Shown piece after piece: positions 14,077 through 24,447 of a DNA stretch of 24,447 nt. The position numbers were made by a program, and so were the translations under genes. The stretch is from a virus. Below the pieces are notes generated by a model. That model did no database searches. It was not told the DNA's origin and saw only the letters and a list, made by a program, of their open reading frames with translations. Every line of letters begins with the position of its first letter. Positions within the stretch are counted from its first letter, which is position 1. The stretch spans positions 1 through 24,447 of the IMG/VR virus record IMGVR_UViG_3300031746_000165; one strand, given 5' to 3'.

Positions 14077-14817
14077 TTACCTGTACTGGTTACGGCACCA
14101 CAGCAGGCGGTGCTCGAGGCCGATTGGAAACACTTGATTCACGCCGATATCGTAGATTACTCCTGACGAAAACACATACTCCTCGTTCTTGTAGTCGATG
14201 AGCCAGCGCACGTCGATGTGGACGGGTCCGCTCTTGACCGGCGTTGCATACGGAATGGTGTAAGTGAACCGCCCGAGTGCAATGTAGAGCGGACCGGTAC
14301 GCGCAACAAGGACGTCGTTGACAAAGACCCCAAGCTCACCTTTGTGCTGGTCTCTTACTATTTCAATCCAACCCGCAGCCGGTGTCGTGAGGGAGTTGTA
14401 GTAGAACAAGAAGTAGGACTGACGGTGCGTGAAGTCAACGACAGCTTCCCCCTTGAGCATCCCTTCTTGCGCGACGAAGTCCAGCACCCACCCGCTGCGG
14501 TTAGCGGCGAAGGCGGAGGACTCGAAGGCGTTCCATCCCAGCGTCCATTCTTCTACGTTAATGTAGTAGGTGTTGCACGCCTCGGCGACGTAGTACGCCT
14601 GCGATGGGTAGACGTAGTTCTTCTGCGCCGGAGGGCCGACGATGTTGGTGTACGCCGGGGGTACAAGCTGTGCACGTCCGACCGAATCCAACGGCATGTT
14701 GTTCTGGTCGAGACTCCCGTTCAGCTCCCCCACGGCCTGATTGATCTCGTCGTTCTGGGGGTCAACGAGGATGATGTCGCCTGCAAGCTGAGGTCCGACA
14801 GTGTATTGGCGTGCCAT
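14077..14817 (-). CDS. Virion-associated beta-rich protein, first of three
   Basis: This 246-aa protein begins MARQYTVGPQLAGDIILVDP. A longer open frame reaches 14991, but the ATG at 14817 forms a one-base TAATG overlap with the nozzle gene's stop, and the upstream extension is antisense-like junk (HVDQVQDHVHRRHCED), so 14817 is taken as the start. Residues 28-45 (DEINQAVGELNGSLDQNNMP) resemble the NxxLDxNN linkers near the start of phage fibre-type proteins. The rest is beta-rich and aromatic (WTLGWNAF, SYFLFYYNSL, FTYTIPYATPV). It is a probable virion surface subunit attached to or near the nozzle. Confidence 0.7.
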   Translation of the reverse strand: MARQYTVGPQLAGDIILVDPQNDEINQAVGELNGSLDQNNMPLDSVGRAQLVPPAYTNIVGPPAQKNYVYPSQAYYVAEACNTYYINVEEWTLGWNAFESSAFAANRSGWVLDFVAQEGMLKGEAVVDFTHRQSYFLFYYNSLTTPAAGWIEIVRDQHKGELGVFVNDVLVARTGPLYIALGRFTYTIPYATPVKSGPVHIDVRWLIDYKNEEYVFSSGVIYDIGVNQVFPIGLEHRLLWCRNQYR

Positions 14818-17087
14818 TAGGACTTCGCTCCCGGCATCTTGGTGTTCGGAGTCTTCACAGTGCCGCCGATGTACATGATCTTGTACTTGATCAACGTGTG
14901 TTTGTTGGCCGACTGCAACCGGAACGCAAAGTGCGAGATCAACCCGGTGTTCACATCCCAGCGCATCCGGGTCACCTTGTGCTCCTGCCACTTCGCTACG
15001 TCCCAGACTGCAAGGTTCGGGCCCGAGGTGAGGGTGGCGTCCTGCGCAGGTCCGATGCCATTGAGGTAGTCACCAATCTTCGGAGCCACGGTGCCTGCGC
15101 TGACGAACTCAGACGAGTAGTCAGAAGCCCACAACAGTTCGACCTCGTTGTTGCCCTCGGTGATCGTCTCGATGTCTACGGTGAGTACACGCTTCTTGAT
15201 GGTGTCGTCGCCGAAGTCCTCCCATCCGCTCTGCCACACGCCGACCGGGGCGCCGGCGGGGAGATAAGCTACCGAGGTTGTGTCGAAGAAGGAAGCGAAG
15301 GGCATCAGGTCGCCCGACGCATGCCGAGCTGTCCAGACCTGCAACCCCATGCCGGGGTACAGGTTCTGGCTTGTCGGGGATGGGCGTGTGCCGATGATGA
15401 TGTAGCCACTTCGGTCCGCAGTAAGCTGCGTGAAGCGCCAGTCCAGAAGCGGAGACTCCGGGTCTACGGCAGACCGCAGCGTAAACTCGTTCACTGTTGG
15501 GGCGTAGACTACGCCGCGTGTGTTCTCGGTCTGGCCGTCCACGGGGAAGTGGCACCACCACTCCTTCTCGCGAGGGGAGTACACAGCGGTTGCTCTACAG
15601 AGAGAGTTCTTCGAAACGCGGCGTAGCTCCTTCTCGAAACGAGCGCTGACCTTGTTGACTTCGATTGAGGCCCCGCCGCGCAGGCCGCCGGTGATCAGGT
15701 ACACGCCATCGAGGTTGAGGAAGAGGATGCCGACACCCGGCACGAGGCGGATGGTGTTCGTAGCGATGGTGCCGATGGACTGGTTGACCGTGGTGCAGGT
15801 GAACCCGTCGCCCGCTGCGTTCGTGAACACGGCGTCGATGGCCTTCTCACGGAAGACCAGGAGCACATCATAGTAGGGAACCAAGGCCGTTATGTGACCA
15901 CCGTCGCGTACCCCTACGTCGAAGTAGTTGAACGCCGGGAACTGCTCCGGCAGACCCTGTGCCGAGTAGATGAGCTGCGTGGGCGTGGTGTCTCCGCCAG
16001 CCAGCCACATCGCGCCGTTCCACGCCGCGCCGTACTTGTAGCCATTGCTGATCGTGACCGAGTCCGCGAAGGTCGGGGCTTTGTCGACAAGCTGGTTGTC
16101 TGGGATGCAGTCGAGGTACTGCCGCGTGGTGTTGTCGTTGATCTGACAGACGAAGTAGTAGACATCGCCGGCTCCGGTCAGCCCATCTTTCTTGTTCTTG
16201 GTGCGGTAGATACGACGGGCGACGGTGCCGTCGGGGCCGGGCTCAAGCCCCTGCACCATTACGCCGTACTTGCGGGCGTTCGCGTCAGCGTACCGGATTC
16301 GCTGAGCCTCGGTCGTGGCGGGGAACGTGGCGTCGGTGTACACCGTCCAGCTCACGTTAGCCGGATTGCTGACCGGGGACTCGGAGCCAGTGTCCGTGAC
16401 GTAGGTCTGCCGATACGAGTACGAGTTGATTGATCCCTTGTCTGGGTCGCCGAGTCCGAGGTAGTCCCCGGCCTCGAACTGCACGGCCATAGACACCAGA
16501 CTGTTGTTGATACCGTCCCCGGTCGGGGCGACGAATGCGTCGGGTTCGGCCGGGATTCCCGGGGCGGAGTAGGTAGTCTGCACCCCGACGCAGTAGGGCG
16601 TGGGCGTAGGCAGAATGAACCCGAAGGGTTCGAGCTTCGCACGGCCCCACCACTTGAACATCTCGTCATGCCCGTTGAGGAGAAGCGCGAAGCGGCCGAA
16701 GGGCACGAACTGCGTACCGGGCTCATCCACTCGAGGCAGATGGCGGTTCCGTGCAAGCACGATCTCTGAAGTGACTGCATCGCCGACGTTGCCGTAGGTG
16801 TAAGACAAGATGCCTGCACGCTCTTGGATGTAGTACTCTTCAGACCCGCCGTGGCGGGCCCACGTTGCGAGGAAGCGGCACGGAGCGCGAGCGACGGCCA
16901 GCTCTGCAGCGGTCAGGATGAACGGGGTGGCAGGGTACGGGATCAAGGGCTCCCATCCCCGGTCCTTACGCCATCCGCCATCGGGCAGGTAGCGGTGGTT
17001 CTGTACGTTCTCCCCTGAGTTTTGACCAATCGTGTAGCGCTGATCGATGCCGGCAGCTGCGACATCGGGGAGGGCGTTAGTCTGCAT
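14817..17087 (-). CDS. Tail nozzle / tail tubular protein B-like
   Basis: This 756-aa protein is expected to form the distal tube (nozzle) of the short tail. The sequence is beta-rich with repeated blade-like phrases typical of nozzle and stabilisation proteins: AAWNGAMWLAGGDTTPTQLIY, PAFNYFDVGVRDGGHITALV, YDVLLVFREKAIDAVF, VPGVGILFLNLDGVYLITGG and REKEWWCHFPVDGQ. These suggest a beta-propeller-like body, which is also known for T7 gp12 and P22 gp10. It follows the adaptor gene, the usual order. The ATG overlaps the adaptor TAA (TAATG) and the stop overlaps the next ATG in the same way, so it is translationally coupled on both sides. Confidence 0.83.
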   Translation of the reverse strand: MQTNALPDVAAAGIDQRYTIGQNSGENVQNHRYLPDGGWRKDRGWEPLIPYPATPFILTAAELAVARAPCRFLATWARHGGSEEYYIQERAGILSYTYGNVGDAVTSEIVLARNRHLPRVDEPGTQFVPFGRFALLLNGHDEMFKWWGRAKLEPFGFILPTPTPYCVGVQTTYSAPGIPAEPDAFVAPTGDGINNSLVSMAVQFEAGDYLGLGDPDKGSINSYSYRQTYVTDTGSESPVSNPANVSWTVYTDATFPATTEAQRIRYADANARKYGVMVQGLEPGPDGTVARRIYRTKNKKDGLTGAGDVYYFVCQINDNTTRQYLDCIPDNQLVDKAPTFADSVTISNGYKYGAAWNGAMWLAGGDTTPTQLIYSAQGLPEQFPAFNYFDVGVRDGGHITALVPYYDVLLVFREKAIDAVFTNAAGDGFTCTTVNQSIGTIATNTIRLVPGVGILFLNLDGVYLITGGLRGGASIEVNKVSARFEKELRRVSKNSLCRATAVYSPREKEWWCHFPVDGQTENTRGVVYAPTVNEFTLRSAVDPESPLLDWRFTQLTADRSGYIIIGTRPSPTSQNLYPGMGLQVWTARHASGDLMPFASFFDTTSVAYLPAGAPVGVWQSGWEDFGDDTIKKRVLTVDIETITEGNNEVELLWASDYSSEFVSAGTVAPKIGDYLNGIGPAQDATLTSGPNLAVWDVAKWQEHKVTRMRWDVNTGLISHFAFRLQSANKHTLIKYKIMYIGGTVKTPNTKMPGAKS

Positions 17088-18610
17088 TAGTTCACCCGGC
17101 GGAGGGAGGCAGGATCGTACGGAGAGAAGATGCGGCCCGTGATTCCGAACTGGCCGCGCACAATGTCAGTGTCGACGCTGTCGACGTAGCGCTTCTGTAG
17201 ACGGAGGATCTCCTTCTCGTACTTCTTCTGGTAGTTGCCCGCCTGAGCCAGGTTGTCGTGCTTGCTGTAGATGTCGTGCAGCACCTTGTAGATCACCAGC
17301 TGGTGAAACTCGATGGGGAACTCTGGCGTGTCGGTCGGAAGTCCGAGGCGCGCAGGCTTGCGGTAGTAGCGGCATTCCCACTGGCGGAACTGGCGCTCGT
17401 TCGCGTCGTTGTAGCCCTCTTGCACGGGCTCACTCGGGATGCCCGGAATGTAGTCGTAGTAGAAGTCGTTGCCGATGGGGCGGGGGTACGGGCGGAAGCG
17501 GAGGTGCAAGCCGTCGTAGTCGATGTAGCGCTTGTTGCCCGGGCTGACCTGATTGAGGAACTCGATCTGGTAGGTGCCCGCAGTGTCCTCGACACGAACA
17601 GGATCATCGGAGGTGTTGACGAACGGAGTCGCAGGCAGCGCGGCCGTCGAGCCGAAGGTCACTTCACGCCAGACAGGCAGGCCGGGGTTGCGGATGCCGG
17701 TGACTCTGTTGAAGTTCTGATTGAAGTAGACGCGCTTCTTCAGGCCTTCGAACGAGTTCATCACCTGGTCGACGTTGTCTACGTAGCCGGGGGCCGCGAC
17801 GGTCACGCCGTCCCACGTCTTGAAGGTAACCACAATACTGCGAGCGGAGTTGCCGGTGACCTGTAAGATGGCCGACTCGCTCAACGCTCCGACCTTCTTG
17901 CCGCCGTCCGTCTCGAAGGCCCAGCACAGCTCGAGGTAGGTGCCGATGGTGATGCTGCCGGTGCCCAATGCCAGCGTGAGCGTCTCTGCCGGGGGCACGT
18001 TGCTCGTGCCGTAGGGGATGTAGCACTGTGAATAGAAGCTGGTGAAGTCTTCACGGAGGTTCAAGTCCTCTTCGCGGCGCGCCGTGATGCCCCGGATTGC
18101 ACCGTACGGAGGGATCTTCCCGACCGCAGGGGTGTCCTTGTGCAGCAGACCGAGGATCTCAACGGCATCAGCAGGAAGATCGTAGAAGCGGTGCTTCAGT
18201 TTCCAGGTGCTGTTGGTTGCGCTCGTAGTTCCTCGGTAGGGTTCGCGCAGGCGGATCTCGGTGCCCGTGGTCACGGCGTCGATGAAGTAGTCGCGTCCGT
18301 TGATCTCGATGATCTGACCTTCCCACACGTAGGGGTACGAGAGCAGAGCTTTGATCGGGCCGGTGAAGCCGACGCGTCGGCGGTTGTCCGTAACGATGCA
18401 CAGCTTCGTGGTGCCGTCAGGTTGGAGAGACACGATGTCGGGCCAGACGTCCATGAAGATGGTCTTCTGTGCGAAGCGCCAGCGCTTCTCAGTCCAGATG
18501 GCGTTGTACGCATCGCCGACAAGCAGGTCCAGCTGCTCGTTGTAGACGGTCAACTCCGGGGAGTAATCGGTGATCGACTTGATCTTGTTTCGGATTTCGG
18601 TCAGGTTCAC
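17087..18610 (-). CDS. Head-tail adaptor / tail tubular protein A-like
   Basis: This 507-aa protein is expected to bind under the portal ring and link it to the nozzle. The N-terminal helical part (LTVYNEQLDLLVGDAYNAIW, then RWRFAQK) matches the pattern of short-tail adaptors, where a helix with LxNxAxxEIW is followed by Trp/Phe. The C-terminal helical part (EFPIEFHQLVIYKVLHDIYS, YQKKYEKEILRLQKRY) also fits. At 507 aa it is far longer than T7 gp11 (about 196 aa); the middle, about residues 190-400, is a beta-rich insertion. The start is GTG, five bases after GGAG. It follows a spacer with a strong hairpin. Confidence 0.78.
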   Translation of the reverse strand: MNLTEIRNKIKSITDYSPELTVYNEQLDLLVGDAYNAIWTEKRWRFAQKTIFMDVWPDIVSLQPDGTTKLCIVTDNRRRVGFTGPIKALLSYPYVWEGQIIEINGRDYFIDAVTTGTEIRLREPYRGTTSATNSTWKLKHRFYDLPADAVEILGLLHKDTPAVGKIPPYGAIRGITARREEDLNLREDFTSFYSQCYIPYGTSNVPPAETLTLALGTGSITIGTYLELCWAFETDGGKKVGALSESAILQVTGNSARSIVVTFKTWDGVTVAAPGYVDNVDQVMNSFEGLKKRVYFNQNFNRVTGIRNPGLPVWREVTFGSTAALPATPFVNTSDDPVRVEDTAGTYQIEFLNQVSPGNKRYIDYDGLHLRFRPYPRPIGNDFYYDYIPGIPSEPVQEGYNDANERQFRQWECRYYRKPARLGLPTDTPEFPIEFHQLVIYKVLHDIYSKHDNLAQAGNYQKKYEKEILRLQKRYVDSVDTDIVRGQFGITGRIFSPYDPASLRRVN

Positions 18611-18629
18611 GCGGACTCCATGCAGATGC

Positions 18630-18661
18630 GGGCGGTGCGGGACGATTATCCCACACCACCC
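18630..18661 (-). terminator. Strong 13-bp hairpin between decoration and adaptor genes
   Basis: On the minus strand the arms GGGTGGTGTGGGA and TCCCGCACCGCCC flank a six-base loop (TAATCG). All 13 pairs form, two of them G-U. The wobbles pair only in minus-strand RNA; on the plus strand they are C-A mismatches, so the structure belongs to the late transcript. There is no U-run after it, so it is more likely an attenuator, an RNase III site or a 3'-end stabiliser than a full intrinsic terminator. The loop also contains GATAAT preceded by TGG, which resembles an extended -10 and would put a promoter just upstream of the adaptor gene. Confidence 0.6.
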
Positions 18662-18684
18662 GACTTGTTGCTACTGGCGCAGAC

Positions 18685-19209
18685 TTAGATACCGCAGCCG
18701 AGGACGTAGACCTTGACAGGTCCAGCCGCAGCCACAGTCTCCATCGCGTAGCAAACAACGTGACCGATGTTTGCGGCTGTGTTGACCATGCAAGCGCCCG
18801 CTGCGCCGGCAGTGTCGAGCACCAGAGGATCGCCGACAGCGCAGCCAACGGTGGCGAGGTTCGACGCCGTGGCCGGACCGCGCACCACAACCCGGATGGG
18901 CTGGGGCGAAGTCGCGGTTCCGGTGACGGCCTGTGCTGCAACGCCGACTACAATCTTCTGCACGGTGCCGACTGCGTTGAAGTCCGCAGTGATGACAGTC
19001 ACCGACGAGTTGCCGCCGGTAGGGTCGAGAGTCATCCGGGCTGCCGTGACGTCGACCGCAACGAGCTGACCTGCCGTGATGGCAGTCTCGGTGAGGAACG
19101 TCTCTTCCTGCTTGCGGTTGAGCGGGTTGGTGCCCAGCTGTACGTCGGCGCCGGTCGTGACGGACTTGCCAGTAGTTTCGAGGTACTGGAGGATATTGGT
19201 AGTTGCCAT
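18685..19209 (-). CDS. Probable capsid decoration protein
   Basis: This 174-aa protein begins MATTNILQYLETTGKSVTTG. It is followed by beta-rich sequence (AITAGQLVAVDV, SVTVITADFNAVGTVQKIVV, QPIRVVVRGPA, GPVKVYVLGC) with much Ala, Thr, Val and Gly, a composition common in capsid-stabilising proteins. The gene directly follows the capsid gene, two bases after its stop, with GAGGG upstream. The phrase TAITAGQLVAVDV and the end NIGHVVCYAMETV recall small decoration or capsid-spike families, but I cannot name one. A decoration role is inferred from position and composition. Confidence 0.66.
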   Translation of the reverse strand: MATTNILQYLETTGKSVTTGADVQLGTNPLNRKQEETFLTETAITAGQLVAVDVTAARMTLDPTGGNSSVTVITADFNAVGTVQKIVVGVAAQAVTGTATSPQPIRVVVRGPATASNLATVGCAVGDPLVLDTAGAAGACMVNTAANIGHVVCYAMETVAAAGPVKVYVLGCGI

Positions 19210-19211
19210 GT

Positions 19212-20234
19212 TTAGAAGCCCTCGCCGTTGAAGAGAAGTGCGCAGGATGCCAAGTTGTCAGCGATGAGCTGACCCTTCCAGTAGATCTGTGCAGACCGAG
19301 CGGTCGTGCCGGGGATGTACTCGAAGGGGCTGACCGCGAGGTCGCCATCGCTGTGCATGACCAACTTGATACCATCGAAGTTGATGAAGTACATGGTTGC
19401 CTGAAGATTAAGGCCGGTGGTGGCGTTGGTAGGCATGAACACGTCCTGCACCACCGCTGCATTCCCGAACGCCAAGCTCATGTAGCCCGCGTTCAGCTGC
19501 TTCTCGTCGATGTAGCGCTCCTGCAGGAACAACGCGCGGCGGTAGTTGGCATAGCCAGCTTCCGAAGTGAGGATGAGTTTGATCTCACCCATCGGTGCGC
19601 GAGCAGAAGTCTCGGCCGCGATCTGCTGCATGCCCCGGATACCGTCGGTGCCGAACAAGTTGTTCGCGTTGAAGATGCGGTTGAACAGACCGTTGCCGTC
19701 CGGGACGAGCGAGCGAGCAAGACCGCCAACGGTGTTGGTCTGACCAGCCGCCGTGGGTGCGCCCTGCTCGAGGAAGCCGGTCACAGTGGCAACACCGTTC
19801 AGAGTCCCGAGGGAGGTCAGAACAGCGGAGTCACCAGCAACGAGCTGCTTGTTGATCTCGCGGCGAAGCAGACCCATGACGTTGCGCATACGCGCTTCGA
19901 CGATCTTGACGATGGCCTTCTCGCCGGCGTTCTCGAGCTCTTCTTTCTTGGTGACAACGATGGGCGCGACGAAGTCAGACCACTCGTACAGAGCGGGCTG
20001 CATGACATCCTGCACAGCGAGGGAGACGGGCTCGTAGCCGGTCGCGAGCTGGGTGATCGTCGAGTGATTGGACACAGCCAACGGGCGCTGGATCTTGATG
20101 CCGCCGTCTTCGTACTCGATACCACCAAGACGCTTGGCGAAGTCGAGGAAAGGGACGCGCTGGAAGAGTTCGTCTACTTCCCCGTCCCGGATGCTGAACA
20201 GCGTCGAGGAGAGGAGTTCATTTGAAATGGCCAT
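19212..20234 (-). CDS. Major capsid protein
   Basis: This 340-aa protein is the main shell subunit. It lies between the scaffold block and the decoration gene, as capsid genes do, and has the best ribosome-binding site in the window: AGGAGG at 20243-20248, eight bases before the ATG. The N-terminal region (about 1-60) is followed by a helical stretch, residues 95-133 (KKEELENAGEKAIVKIVEAR, MRNVMGLLRREINKQLVAGD), like the long spine helix of HK97-fold capsids. Beta-rich sequence follows, ending YIPGTTARSAQIYWKGQLIA. The fold is inferred; identity rests on order, size, predicted expression and helix pattern. Confidence 0.85.
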   Translation of the reverse strand: MAISNELLSSTLFSIRDGEVDELFQRVPFLDFAKRLGGIEYEDGGIKIQRPLAVSNHSTITQLATGYEPVSLAVQDVMQPALYEWSDFVAPIVVTKKEELENAGEKAIVKIVEARMRNVMGLLRREINKQLVAGDSAVLTSLGTLNGVATVTGFLEQGAPTAAGQTNTVGGLARSLVPDGNGLFNRIFNANNLFGTDGIRGMQQIAAETSARAPMGEIKLILTSEAGYANYRRALFLQERYIDEKQLNAGYMSLAFGNAAVVQDVFMPTNATTGLNLQATMYFINFDGIKLVMHSDGDLAVSPFEYIPGTTARSAQIYWKGQLIADNLASCALLFNGEGF

Positions 20235-20365
20235 TTGTCGGCCTCCTAACTGAATGGTTTTGGGAACAGGACTAAGTCAGTCGGGTGGCCGAAGGGCTCC
20301 GCTCTCCCAGTTCTCTCTTACGGGTGACCTGTTGGGGTTCCGCTGAGGCAGTCGGGAGGAGTTGC

Positions 20366-20377
20366 ACTGCCGGCAGT
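20366..20377. repeat. 12-bp perfect palindrome overlapping the -10 element
   Basis: ACTGCCGGCAGT is its own reverse complement and shares its last three bases (on the plus strand) with the candidate -10 hexamer before the capsid gene. It would lie at the transcription start, the usual place for an operator bound by a dimeric repressor. It could instead be a small RNA hairpin or chance. Confidence 0.35.
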
Positions 20378-20383
20378 ATAGCA
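20375..20383 (-). promoter_or_regulatory. Candidate extended -10 promoter (TGCTATACT) for the capsid gene
   Basis: The minus strand reads TGCTATACT shortly after the stop of the 78-aa gene, with an A-tract (CACAAAAACG) just upstream. The 163-base spacer before the capsid ATG (20235-20397) is the longest gap in the window and otherwise holds only the palindrome and a Shine-Dalgarno site. The -35 position lacks a clear TTGACA, as expected for extended -10 promoters. A dedicated capsid promoter would make sense because this protein is needed in hundreds of copies. Confidence 0.5.
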
Positions 20384-20397
20384 CGTTTTTGTGCGGT

Positions 20398-20634
20398 TCA
20401 GCGTCTACTCTTTTTTCCCACGCATCCCCACTTCTTCCGTGACAGATTGTTCGGGGTGTTGGGGTCGTTCTGTTTCTCGGGGCTCAGCCCCTTCTTGATG
20501 CCAGCAGACCGTGCGCAGTAGCTGTCACCCCGCGATGTGCCAGGTGAAACAGTCGCGCCGACCTGACCGTAGCGCACAGTCTTAGTGCGCCCGGTCGACG
20601 GGTTCTTCACGACCTTCTTGCTGGCCTTCTTCAC
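20398..20634 (-). CDS. Small basic conserved phage protein with Cys motif (DUF6321-like)
   Basis: This 78-aa protein is lysine- and arginine-rich. The core VRYGQVGATVSPGTSRGDSY, then CARSAGIKK, then DPNTPNNLSRKKWGCVGKKS, is a pattern I know from many phages and have seen listed as DUF6321; the role is unknown. The GTG at 20634 was chosen because it forms a four-base GTGA overlap with the scaffold stop and starts where relatives usually start; an ATG at 20676 would give 92 aa but overlaps the scaffold by 46 bases. Two cysteines (CARS and KKWGC) may bind a metal. Its place between scaffold and capsid suggests a head-related role. Confidence 0.72.
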   Translation of the reverse strand: MKKASKKVVKNPSTGRTKTVRYGQVGATVSPGTSRGDSYCARSAGIKKGLSPEKQNDPNTPNNLSRKKWGCVGKKSRR

Positions 20635-21398
20635 TTCGAGGAGCCGTGGGCTTTGTGCCACTGGTAGGCAGTCCATGCGTCCTTGAACTTCGGAGCCTCG
20701 GCGCTGCGTACGGCGTTGCCGGTCGAGGTCTTCATCAGAGTCTCGCGCTGTGCAGTCTTCACTGCCGTGTTCTGCTCTTTTGCGACCTGTCCCTTCACGA
20801 TGTAGTACGCATCCTCGAGCCGCAGCTCGGGGCGATCCATCAGCAGACGCGCAACGGGCATGCGCATCTCGTCCGAGGTCAGGTCGGGGTGCTTGGTCTT
20901 GAACGAGTCAAGCGCGACCTGACGGCTCTGCGTGGCGAGATCCTGCTGCAACGGGGCGAGCATCTGCTGCATCATCTGCGCAGCCTTCACGTCGATCCGC
21001 TCCTGCAGTCCCTCGTCACTCCAAGCATCGTGCTCCAACGGCTTCGCTGCCTGCTCTGCTACCTTCTGTGCGAACTCTGACTTGGTCATCAGCTCCCGGT
21101 CGCGGGCCAGGGATGCGCGCTCTGCCTCGAGCTGCTGCCGGAGCGTGGCAATCTCCGTCGTCTTCTGCGTGTACGAGGCGCGCAGATTCCCAACGAGCTT
21201 GCGCCCGTTCTCCGGCAGGTGCTCGAGGATCTTCTTGTAGTCGGGCAGGCCTTTGTGCCCGCCCTTCAGTTCGGGGTGATCGTCATACGCTGAACCGATG
21301 AGCTCATCGAGGCTGATGTCTTCCGCTTCGGCGGCCTGGACAACTTCGACGGGGGCTTCAGCGGCAGGTGCGACGGGCGTGGCTGCGGTATCGAGCAT
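20631..21398 (-). CDS. Capsid assembly scaffold protein
   Basis: This 255-aa protein begins MLDTAATPVAPAAEAPVEVV. The N-terminus is acidic and disordered (to about 40). A long charged coiled coil follows at about residues 72-128 (KTTEIATLRQQLEAERASLA, RDRELMTKSEFAQKVAEQ), then more helix (MMQQMLAPLQQDLATQSRQV) and a basic C-terminus. This is the usual build of phage scaffolds, which line the procapsid and then leave. It sits directly upstream of the capsid module. AGGAAGGA precedes the ATG, two bases after the stop of the 173-aa gene. Confidence 0.82.
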   Translation of the reverse strand: MLDTAATPVAPAAEAPVEVVQAAEAEDISLDELIGSAYDDHPELKGGHKGLPDYKKILEHLPENGRKLVGNLRASYTQKTTEIATLRQQLEAERASLARDRELMTKSEFAQKVAEQAAKPLEHDAWSDEGLQERIDVKAAQMMQQMLAPLQQDLATQSRQVALDSFKTKHPDLTSDEMRMPVARLLMDRPELRLEDAYYIVKGQVAKEQNTAVKTAQRETLMKTSTGNAVRSAEAPKFKDAWTAYQWHKAHGSSK

Positions 21399-21400
21399 GA

Positions 21401-21922
21401 TTACATCCTTCCTGCGAACAGGGTGTCAGTGGATTCGGCAGAGTCCATCGGGGCTTCTTCCTCCATGGACTCCTCAGCAGGCGCGGACTCCTTGACCTTC
21501 TTGGTCAGGAAGCGCTTGAAGGTGCCGGACTTGGCGGCCATGCCGATGCGCCCAGCCAGGCCCTGCAGTCCGTTGTCGTCGGTGATCACGGTGAGGTCGA
21601 TCTTCGCGTCTTCGGGCAGCACGCCTTCTTCGATGGCGTCATCGAACGCCTTGCCGAACATGGTCAGCAAGCGCATGAACTCCGGGGGCAGGGTGGACAT
21701 CTTGGGCTCAGTGAACCGGTCGTACATGTCCTTGATGCCGAACAGGGGCAGCAGACGGTTGGTCGCTTCGACCAGCGCGTTGGCGGCCTTGCCGCTGAAC
21801 GAACCCTTCGGCGCAGACGCAGAGTACAGTTCGTCCTCGCTCTCTTCGACATCACCCTGACGGGTCATGGCTTCGGAACGCATCGACGCAAGATTGGCCT
21901 TTTCTTCTGGGGACATCATCAT
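21401..21922 (-). CDS. Hypothetical head-module protein (173 aa)
   Basis: This is an acidic, helical protein. Three ATG codons in a row start the gene (21922, 21919, 21916), with AAGGAG just upstream; the first also overlaps the previous stop as ATGA. The middle holds ANALVEATNRLLPLFGIKDM and EFMRLLTMFGKAFDDAIEEG. The C-terminus is very acidic and Ser/Met-rich (ESAPAEESMEEEAPMDSAES). No TM or cysteine is seen. Position between portal and scaffold suggests a minor head or assembly protein. I do not recognise the family. Confidence 0.7.
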   Translation of the reverse strand: MMMSPEEKANLASMRSEAMTRQGDVEESEDELYSASAPKGSFSGKAANALVEATNRLLPLFGIKDMYDRFTEPKMSTLPPEFMRLLTMFGKAFDDAIEEGVLPEDAKIDLTVITDDNGLQGLAGRIGMAAKSGTFKRFLTKKVKESAPAEESMEEEAPMDSAESTDTLFAGRM

Positions 21923-22386
21923 GGGGACTCCTTGGCAGCATCATGGGCATGCGCCTGTTCAAGCATTTGTTTGGCGGGGAAGGTTTCAGTGACGGCCATG
22001 ACCTTGTCCCCGTTGAACTTCTTCAAGTTCTCCCGGTATAGGTTCGCCGTCGCATCAAGTTGTTTCTTCTCGTCGATCTTGCGCGAGGCGAGGGTGTCGT
22101 ACATGGCCTCGCCTCCTGCGTCCTTCTCGTTCACGAAGCCGCGAGCGTTCATGATCTTCTCTTCCTCGCGCTTGTTCGCAACGCGGTGTCCGGCGCTCGG
22201 GCTGAAGAAGCCGTTGCCACTGAGTCCGGAGTTCCAGCCTGCGTTCCACAGCGTGGTCATCTTCGCAGGCATGGACACCTGCTGTACGCCGGCGACGCCG
22301 CATTCCGGACACTTTGAACCCTGCGCCCACTTGACCAGGGCTTCCCACTCGCCGTGCTCTTTGCACACGAAGTCGTAGATGGGCAT
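21919..22386 (-). CDS. FmdB-like zinc-ribbon protein in the head module
   Basis: This 155-aa protein has the N-terminus MPIYDFVCKEHGEWEALVKW, then SKCPECG. This matches the FmdB-type zinc ribbon (MPxYxxxCxxxG...CPxCG), with C8, H11, C26 and C29 as likely ligands; H11 replaces the usual cysteine. Beyond residue 40 it is helical and charged and unlike FmdB (GFFSPSAGHRVANKREEEK, ASRKIDEKKQLDATANLYRE). The ATG at 22386 was preferred over a GTG one codon earlier because FmdB proteins start MPxY and because it makes a one-base TGATG overlap with the portal stop. Its role is unknown; a metal-holding head or assembly factor, or a regulator, is possible. Confidence 0.78.
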   Translation of the reverse strand: MPIYDFVCKEHGEWEALVKWAQGSKCPECGVAGVQQVSMPAKMTTLWNAGWNSGLSGNGFFSPSAGHRVANKREEEKIMNARGFVNEKDAGGEAMYDTLASRKIDEKKQLDATANLYRENLKKFNGDKVMAVTETFPAKQMLEQAHAHDAAKESP

Positions 22387-24032
22387 CACACGCCTCCGAT
22401 GACGGCAGCGGTGTCAGCCGAGGGGGTAGGCGCTGCTTCCGGCGGGGCTACCACACTACCGGGCGCAGCGGACGGGGCCTCCGGTGCAGGTGCAGGCGGA
22501 GCCGCCTCGTTGAACGCTTCGGGCAGGTCGAACAGACGCACGACTTCTGCACGCAGCTTATCGGCGGGGACGCCGAGGCCAGGCAGAACGGCGAGCAACT
22601 GTGTCAGCTGCTGCTTGCGCACCATGTCAGTCATCGGAGTCCCGCCGCCGTCCGTTGCATAGAACGACCAGTCTGCATCTATCTTTTCGACAGAGGCCGC
22701 GCTGGCTCCGGACGGAGTGGCAATGACAATAGTTTCACCGTCGTCGAGCAGCGGGATGAGCATGCGGATGTACAGGGTGACAGCCTGCTCGATGGTGGCA
22801 TCGCGGTCGCGGGCCATCTTGCCCAGCTCGCTCGAGGTGTACTGCATGAGCGCAGTGACCTCTGTTGCCGTAGCCTTGCTCGCTTCGCCGCGAGTAAAGC
22901 CGGCGGTCAAGCTGCCCTTCTGCAGGTCTGACTCGATGTAGTTCAGGTAGGCTGCGTGGTTGCTGCTGATCGGAGTAACCGGGACCTCGGCAATCAGACC
23001 GGCCAGTGTGTCGTTGTCGGTGGGGATCATCGCCCCGTCGATGCCGCTCGTGATCTTGGCAAGAGCCTCGTCGTCGAAGGCTCCTTCCTTGTAGATGAAC
23101 TGACGGCTGTCGCGGCGGACGGCGTTCGCCCAGAACGTGCGCAAAACGTTCTTCTCGAAACATTGGTCGTAGACGCGGGACATAGCAGAGTACCCAATCA
23201 TTGGGCGGTCGGGCTGACGTGCGAAGTAGAAGGGCACGATGTTTGGCAGAGGACGCCCGTCGAAGGTCATGACAGGGATCGCGTCTTTGCTCAGCAGCTC
23301 TGCTCCGTTCTTGTAGTGGCTCGACCAGAACAGCAGCTCGCTGTTCAGCAGGTCGTACATCTCTACGACCTCTATGTACAGGTACTCATTGGGTAACTCG
23401 GCGTTCGACGTGCCATTGTAGCTGCGGTAAGAGCGGTCGTTGTTCCGCTCGTAGTCTGTGAAGTAGTCCCGTTGAGGTGCACCCACGAACTTCTTGTTGC
23501 CGAACTTGGCGATGGCTTCGTCGACAGACAGGTAGTACACGTGGCCTACGAACCTGCAGTCCTCCCATGCCGCGGCATCCTGATCTACGATGATCTGCCA
23601 CGGCGGGATAGCGCGCATCGCGATCTTGCCGAGCAGCGTGTTGCTCTCACGCGGGGCCAGCTTCAGGAAGGAGCTCGTGTAGATGAGCGCCATGCGTGCC
23701 GCGGACTCGACCTGGGTGCGCGCGGACTTGAGGAAGTCGTTGGCGATGGTCTTGGTGAACACCGCATCGCCCTTGCCTGTGATGTCAGGTCCGACCTCGA
23801 CGCTCGGGTACTTGGTGAACAGGCTGCCCATCATGGACTCGATGGTCGCGTAGGCGTCGGCAGTCTCGACGCGGATCGCCGTGTCTGACACGAGGTCAAT
23901 GTCGGCATAGAACTTGGTCATGTACGCGTTCTTATAGCGACGCATCCGAGGGCGTGCTTCGTCCCAGAAGTCGGTATGGTTTTGCAACGCGGCGCGCAGG
24001 AACTGGATGCGGTCTTTTTCGGTACGGGGCAT
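22386..24032 (-). CDS. Portal (head-tail connector) protein
   Basis: This 548-aa protein is expected to form the ring at one capsid vertex through which DNA is packaged and released. Typical portal features include an N-terminal helical part (RIQFLRAALQNHTDFWDEAR), AMRAIPPWQIIVDQDAAAWE with CRFVGHVYYLS (about 140-172), and IVPFYFARQPDRPMIGYSAM followed by the helix with QCFEKNVLRTFWANAVRRDS. ASKATATEVTALMQYTSSEL (about 385-405) is also common in short-tailed portals. The C-terminus (about 505-548) is Pro/Ala-rich. It lies after the terminase, with GAGG before the ATG in a 26-base spacer. Confidence 0.92.
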   Translation of the reverse strand: MPRTEKDRIQFLRAALQNHTDFWDEARPRMRRYKNAYMTKFYADIDLVSDTAIRVETADAYATIESMMGSLFTKYPSVEVGPDITGKGDAVFTKTIANDFLKSARTQVESAARMALIYTSSFLKLAPRESNTLLGKIAMRAIPPWQIIVDQDAAAWEDCRFVGHVYYLSVDEAIAKFGNKKFVGAPQRDYFTDYERNNDRSYRSYNGTSNAELPNEYLYIEVVEMYDLLNSELLFWSSHYKNGAELLSKDAIPVMTFDGRPLPNIVPFYFARQPDRPMIGYSAMSRVYDQCFEKNVLRTFWANAVRRDSRQFIYKEGAFDDEALAKITSGIDGAMIPTDNDTLAGLIAEVPVTPISSNHAAYLNYIESDLQKGSLTAGFTRGEASKATATEVTALMQYTSSELGKMARDRDATIEQAVTLYIRMLIPLLDDGETIVIATPSGASAASVEKIDADWSFYATDGGGTPMTDMVRKQQLTQLLAVLPGLGVPADKLRAEVVRLFDLPEAFNEAAPPAPAPEAPSAAPGSVVAPPEAAPTPSADTAAVIGGV

Positions 24033-24058
24033 GGTGGCCTCAGGGTATCACAAGGTTG

Positions 24059-24447
24059 TCAGTATCGGCGAAGATCGTGGCGGGCACCCTGCTTTCTGGC
24101 CTCGGCAACCTTGCGGTCCGTGATCCATTGTGGCAGGAAGGGCTTGTCAGATACCCGCACCGTGAGTAAGCACTGAAGAGCCAGCGCCAATCCGATGACA
24201 GTATCGCCGTGGTGCAGACCGCCAGTCGGGGCGTACGGCCTGCCCTTCTCGTCGATCTTGAAGGAGCGCAGCTCACCGATGGTCCAGCTATCAAGCTGTT
24301 GAATCTGTCCGCGAGCCAGGGCATCGCGCACACCCTCGAGCATGCGGGGCTTCGACTCTGCGTTGGTCGTCCAGTAGTTGCCCTTCTCGTCCGTCCATTG
24401 GGGGATCGACATGTGCCGTAGCTCTGTCACGATGACGCCGCCCCACA
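24059..24447 (-). CDS. Terminase large subunit, C-terminal part (runs off the window)
   Basis: The frame is open to the right edge (upstream residues read WGGVIVTE), so the gene starts outside the window and only about the last 128 residues are visible. The sequence SKPRMLEGVRDALARGQI, then LDSWTIGELRSFKIDEKG, then GGLHHGDTVIGLALALQCL matches the end of the terminase nuclease domain, where an EL-x-xF strand precedes an HDD-type motif. Here the motif reads HHGD, which keeps one Asp. Terminase packages DNA into the head with the portal, the next gene. The N-terminal ATPase is not visible. Confidence 0.85.
   Translation of the reverse strand, partial: WGGVIVTELRHMSIPQWTDEKGNYWTTNAESKPRMLEGVRDALARGQIQQLDSWTIGELRSFKIDEKGRPYAPTGGLHHGDTVIGLALALQCLLTVRVSDKPFLPQWITDRKVAEARKQGARHDLRRY

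Follow-up and report, generated by a model that had tools for sequence, protein, structure and literature searches.

Bacteriophage T7 encodes its own RNA polymerase, and the terminator that follows its capsid gene is a textbook element. The T7 annotation lists, in order, promoter phi10, gene 10 (capsid), terminator Tphi (at 24210), and gene 11 (tail tube/adaptor, at 24228); genes 11 and 12 are expressed by read-through (PMC5592923). The podophages LUZ100, JG068, and LIMEzero similarly carry a promoter upstream and a terminator directly 3' of the major capsid gene (PMC10134795; PMC3765740).

Stable stem-loops are known from other settings as well. The I-shaped (U-less) terminators of mycobacteria are GC-rich hairpins without poly-U, that lie no more than 50 bp from a stop codon, in a genome of high GC content (PMC12288462); whether such U-less hairpins terminate transcription is disputed in works cited there. 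In selective RNA processing and stabilisation, a stem-loop between genes works together with a cleavage site. For example, a −25.4 kcal/mol stem between two Escherichia coli genes, with a following RNase E site, raises expression of the upstream gene (PMC10667835).

The window considered here (G000) is the whole of a 24,447-base virus record from an uncultured phage. Its minus strand encodes, in order, the portal protein (phrog_156), several unnamed products, the major capsid protein, a 174-aa protein, a 507-aa protein, and a tail protein, with a stem-loop in the spacer between the 174-aa and 507-aa genes (Table 1). As the initial annotation had it, this spacer (74 nt, stop codon to GTG start) is the only one between the gene in the decoration position and the adaptor gene. 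The hairpin begins 22 nt past the stop codon of the former and ends 18 nt ahead of the GTG start of the latter. This is the place of Tphi: in the window, in its relatives, and in T7, a hairpin directly follows the capsid unit, at the junction of head and tail genes, and in both T7 and the window 18 nt separate it from the next tail gene. However, T7 RNA polymerase is the enzyme on which Tphi acts, and the Tphi tail is TTTTTT, whereas the window hairpin is unrelated in sequence and lacks a U-run. LUZ100, JG068, and LIMEzero differ too: all three are T7-like and encode a polymerase of their own, whereas the window unit adds a decoration gene and its stem has a U-poor tail. Comparison of sequences makes it likely that this late-mRNA hairpin is the downstream end of the capsid transcription unit, where it would attenuate expression of the tail genes relative to the capsid genes.

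The 174-aa protein has no PHROG or Pfam match, and its structure model (mean pLDDT 64) was too poor for a structure search. The 507-aa protein is weakly identified as an adaptor by Pfam. Fold comparison with podophage tail structures returned 9k09_d (probability 0.97), 9nwi_A (0.84), 9d83_B (0.82), and 7z47_A (0.77), all of them weak matches with low TM-scores and no E-value below 0.001; these lend the name support, not proof. No match to the adaptor protein was found by tblastn among 50,697 annotated phages, and bacterial and archaeal genomes scanned with the capsid protein yielded no relative.

Table 1. Features of the capsid–adaptor region of the window
Feature	Position	Strand	Basis
Extended −10-like motif, TGCTATACT, directly upstream of the leader	20375..20383	minus	Sequence; similar motifs in near relatives
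Structured capsid-gene leader RNA, candidate 5' part of the capsid unit	20280..20375	minus	Covariance model built from relatives, near-identical contig included, 69.3 bits; covariation
Major capsid protein gene	19212..20234	minus	phrog_9953 major head protein, E 4.5e-27
174-aa gene, decoration position	18685..19209	minus	Open reading frame; named by position alone
RNA hairpin	18629..18662	minus	14 pairs, 2 of them G-U; sequence, folds, conservation, covariation
Hairpin 5' arm	18662-18649	minus	
Hairpin loop (UAAUCG)	18648-18643	minus	
Hairpin 3' arm	18642-18629	minus	
Tail after the stem, CATCTGCA	18621..18628	minus	Corresponds in alignment to U-richer tails of relatives (CTTTTGC, CATTTGC); most of the U-tract lost
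Adaptor gene, 507 aa, GTG start	17087..18610	minus	Pfam SU10_adaptor, E 1.3e-4, which misses the curated threshold

The minus-strand DNA of 18629-18662 reads CGGGTGGTGTGGGA-TAATCG-TCCCGCACCGCCCG, and the RNA CGGGUGGUGUGGGA-UAAUCG-UCCCGCACCGCCCG. A 13-pair stem with a six-base loop had been described at 18630-18661; this is exact, and the outer C-G pair (18629/18662) makes 14. An inner U-G is also closed in the hairpin fold, for 15 pairs when it is counted. The sequence likewise bears out what was described for the two imperfect positions: G-U when the minus strand is read as RNA, C-A in the plus strand. Because those two C-A positions fail to pair, the antisense hairpin is the weaker (−21.1 kcal/mol, vs −29.5 kcal/mol in the sense of the late transcript).

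Folding of the 86-nt spacer region is stronger than chance (z = −4.1; 0 of 200 shuffles equally good). Across the entire 24-kb window the hairpin is only moderately rare: the best hairpin scored at least as well in 2 of 40 shuffled windows, and one coding-region hairpin in the window scores slightly above it. By themselves, therefore, the fold statistics of the window are only suggestive; chance origin is excluded because relatives conserve the hairpin. Rfam 15 families gave no match at E ≤ 1 within 18400-18900. (A further strong stem, AGGCCCGCTTC...GAAGCGGGCCT, lies on the minus strand at 858-899, within the coding sequence of an endolysin-like gene, 733-1146, that is peptidase M15-like with a Pfam E of 7.6e-6.)

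Relatives' loci came from two IMG/VR scans (36 and 80 loci), and conservation was scored over 61 distinct spacers whose adaptors are 25-100% identical. In 56 of the 61, the best hairpin is matched by only 0-1 of 100 dinucleotide shuffles. The hairpin-positive spacers represent every one of the 10 adaptor clusters formed at 60% identity, and 44 of the 48 formed at 95%. The 90 nt upstream of the adaptor have a mean z of −3.3 (n = 65), vs −0.29 for portal (n = 35), −0.55 for capsid (n = 66), and −0.05 for tail (n = 30) at control gene starts. Most of the five spacers without a significant hairpin contain a long-loop or interrupted stem. The real exception, L092, carries a reversed GIY-YIG endonuclease gene (Pfam E 2.4e-11) within the spacer. 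L008, L020, and L026 fill the hairpin slot with unrelated stems whose tail is CTTTTTG.

Position within the spacer bears on translational control, whereby a hairpin near the adaptor ribosome binding site would tune initiation or coupling. The window copy, its stem ending so close to the GTG start, invites this idea. Across relatives, however, the hairpin lies 5-53 nt past the stop codon (interquartile range 12-23) and 16-467 nt before the adaptor (19-41). Inserts of about 400 nt in L019, L062, and L063 raise the distance to the adaptor to 386-467 nt, yet leave the hairpin just after the decoration gene. Moreover, the start codon falls outside the stem, and the U-tracts of relatives do not fit translational control, which we regard as improbable. 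To judge from these distances, the hairpin goes with the upstream (decoration) gene rather than with the adaptor.

Other elements share these spacers. Endonuclease-like genes lie on the opposite strand in L019, L062, L063, and L092, in the first three after the hairpin; the L019 insert protein has a sub-threshold match to a homing-endonuclease zinc-binding domain (E 3.4e-4). In L022, L023, L029, L031, L081, and L096, a conserved leader (TTTACA...GCTAAAGCAGT...CAGACGACCAT) follows the hairpin and precedes the adaptor. A promoter behind the terminator of the L022 clade (TTTACA...TAGTAT) was considered, and found no support in a consensus scan. Four mid-GC relatives (L012, L013, L014, and L018) have a perfect TATAAT 15-25 nt past the hairpin, before the adaptor, with no recognisable −35 box.

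Is the conserved element an RNA? Strand asymmetry says so. Among distinct hairpins, read in coding sense, wobbles number 56 G-U vs 2 A-C with both scored alike (the sequences are related, and the binomial p is nominal only). Covariation of the stem among relatives, which the initial annotation had proposed as a check, is also present: in 12 near and intermediate relatives, compensatory double changes occur at 6 of the 11 outer pairs, and 99% of cells are paired. Outer-stem covariation is 0.507, vs 0.206 (sd 0.029) in shuffled alignments and at most 0.22 in slid controls, in a test confined to the outer 11 pairs, with arms joined by a supplied fixed spacer and the register chosen from folds. 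At the outer wobble of the window, U-G, L006 has U-A and L007 has C-G, the states that flank a wobble intermediate. A low-GC stem set (A2) has zero double changes and therefore adds no covariation.

Together, the G-U bias and the compensatory changes lead to the conclusion that the hairpin is selected as sense RNA. The initial annotation drew this conclusion from the two wobble pairs of the window; the conclusion stands, whereas those two wobbles alone were insufficient to prove it. The same asymmetry contradicts a palindromic DNA element (for protein binding, or as a recombination or insertion hot spot) as the main function. Such an element, with no RNA role, would show no strand preference, and the same site carries stems of unrelated sequence. 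An inverted repeat at a module boundary, with homing-endonuclease-like genes inserted alongside in some relatives, is what the palindrome has in its favour; we find it scarcely credible.

Most polymerases require a U-tract for intrinsic termination. The initial annotation rightly reported no U-run after the stem in the window: the tail holds 2 U in 8 positions, without the tract directly after the stem that an intrinsic terminator has. The other features of such a terminator are present, in a stable, GC-rich hairpin on the sense strand, just past a stop codon. Low-GC relatives carry the textbook form (TTTTTT) at the same site, with AAGGGGTGGGTG-TTT-CGCCCATCCCTT-TTTT. The U share of the 8 nt past the stem drops as GC rises (Spearman −0.80, n = 36; −0.68, n = 61). 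In low-, mid-, and high-GC groups, tail U content is 0.77, 0.51, and 0.30, vs backgrounds of 0.27, 0.22, and 0.16, with the high-GC value drawn from five distinct hairpins only; enrichment over background persists in the mid-GC tails. In aligned columns, the tails of close relatives form a graded set: CTTTTGC, CATTTGC, CACCTGC, CATCTGC.

From these alignments we read a single functional slot that holds terminator-type hairpins, in which the U-tract of the GC-rich clade appears to have decayed while the stem was maintained. Loss of the U-tract alone is no sign of function, because base composition could by itself erode it. In anatomy the window hairpin resembles the I-shaped terminators (22 nt from the stop codon, 2 U of 8).

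The missing U-tract and the −29.5 kcal/mol stem also fit a pure stabiliser: a non-terminating stem that would stand in the way of 3'-5' exonucleases once Rho termination or an endonuclease cut has occurred downstream, letting capsid mRNA outlive tail mRNA. The E. coli intergenic stem described above sets a precedent, and there, as here, a stable stem lies between genes needed in unequal amounts (PMC10667835). Those intercistronic stem-loops differ in working together with a cleavage site, whereas the relatives of the window have U-tracts at the same site, which a mere stabiliser would not need. We consider a pure stabiliser unlikely.

RNase III prefers stems of about 20 bp or more. The initial annotation had offered cutting by this enzyme, which would separate head and tail mRNAs as T7 processing sites do, and double-stranded RNA does sit between head and tail genes here. 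T7 late genes do contain RNase cleavage sites (PMC5592923). However, the ungapped stems are short for this enzyme, 14-15 bp in the window and mostly 9-16 bp in relatives. Stem sequences are unrelated, many are followed by U-tracts, and the T7 element at this place is a terminator, not a cleavage site. The proposal is left unsupported, and RNase III processing is very improbable.

The best reading is thus an attenuator or 3'-end former, which would be a U-poor form of the post-capsid terminator known from other phages. That tail genes are attenuated relative to capsid genes, as the initial annotation also suggested, gains support from the conserved position, the U-tract terminators of low-GC relatives, and T7 Tphi. 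In the proposed mechanism, an RNA polymerase, probably that of the host, would transcribe the capsid and decoration genes; most transcripts would receive their 3' end at the hairpin, and a minority would continue past it into the adaptor and tail genes. The outcome would be an excess of capsid and decoration proteins over tail proteins. The effect on expression, and the way in which a 3' end arises in the U-poor clade of the window, we infer. For the window copy, termination by the host polymerase, weak or independent of U, has about an even chance of being correct; that the stem instead shields a 3' end formed further downstream, by Rho termination or cleavage, is somewhat unlikely.

The host polymerase is named as the likely reader because a T7-type RNA polymerase (PF00940) was not found in the records of 16 relatives, which may be incomplete (the T7 control was positive); this is an inference. 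A sigma-70 consensus promoter scan of 14500-24447 found none, with 1.5 expected, and therefore gives no evidence of a separate tail promoter in the window.

The presumed other end of the capsid unit has a structure of its own. The leader RNA upstream of the capsid gene is conserved over about 95 nt in the near clade. The loop of its helix P1, CTC(C)TCC, pairs with a downstream GGAGAG to form a pseudoknot, with 97% of cells paired; pair types are C-G, G-C, and U-A at one position, and U-A, C-G, G-C, and A-U at another. The apical part of helix P2, capped by a mostly GNRA loop, is 98.6% paired, and the lower part only 66%. Covariation is 0.463, vs 0.136 shuffled and at most 0.12 in slid controls, for a structure derived by eye from the same sequences. 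The leader model matches upstream of the capsid gene, once per matching source, both in the window and in relatives with capsid identity as low as about 64% (L038, L018, L040, L062, and others). An exact pattern of the leader core occurs in 20 IMG/VR stretches, many of which belong to contigs already in the set, and a search of Rfam gave no family at E ≤ 1. This undescribed leader RNA could regulate capsid translation.

Directly upstream, the extended −10-like motif is a possible capsid promoter and transcript start that the sigma-70 scan missed. Low-GC relatives (L089, L083, L091, L106, and others) share a conserved TTGACA-17-TAAAAT-type promoter, placed some 100 nt ahead of the capsid gene. 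Promoter, capsid gene, decoration gene, and terminator therefore form one unit there, as do phi10, gene 10, and Tphi in T7. (The low-GC promoter is followed by a conserved leader of different sequence, GAACTC...GAGCACTC...CATTCC...GGAATACGGTTTAGGC.) In the window, the unit would comprise the leader RNA, the major capsid protein gene, and the decoration gene, with the hairpin closing its end. Tentatively, and with rather less than even confidence, we propose a graded series that runs from the U-tract terminator at low GC to the U-less hairpin at 61-66% GC, with a stem that compensatory changes still maintain. The U-less form would be a functional, non-canonical 3'-end former that closes a capsid unit with the pseudoknotted leader RNA at its other end.

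Distant capsid relatives present a varied picture. Mx8 and BUCT555 lack a strong simple hairpin immediately after the capsid gene. In ppBjS10J-1 and MW202489 a hairpin with a T-rich tail follows the gene after capsid, and in MW202803 a hairpin lies directly 3' of the capsid gene.

The lineage of the window thus has a T7-like layout in uncultured podophages without a detected T7-type polymerase. Attenuation of tail relative to capsid genes looks like a recurrent solution, not a peculiarity of T7. Moreover, the GC-graded loss of the U-tract at a single locus provides a natural set of variants with which to ask whether U-less hairpins terminate transcription or only protect 3' ends.
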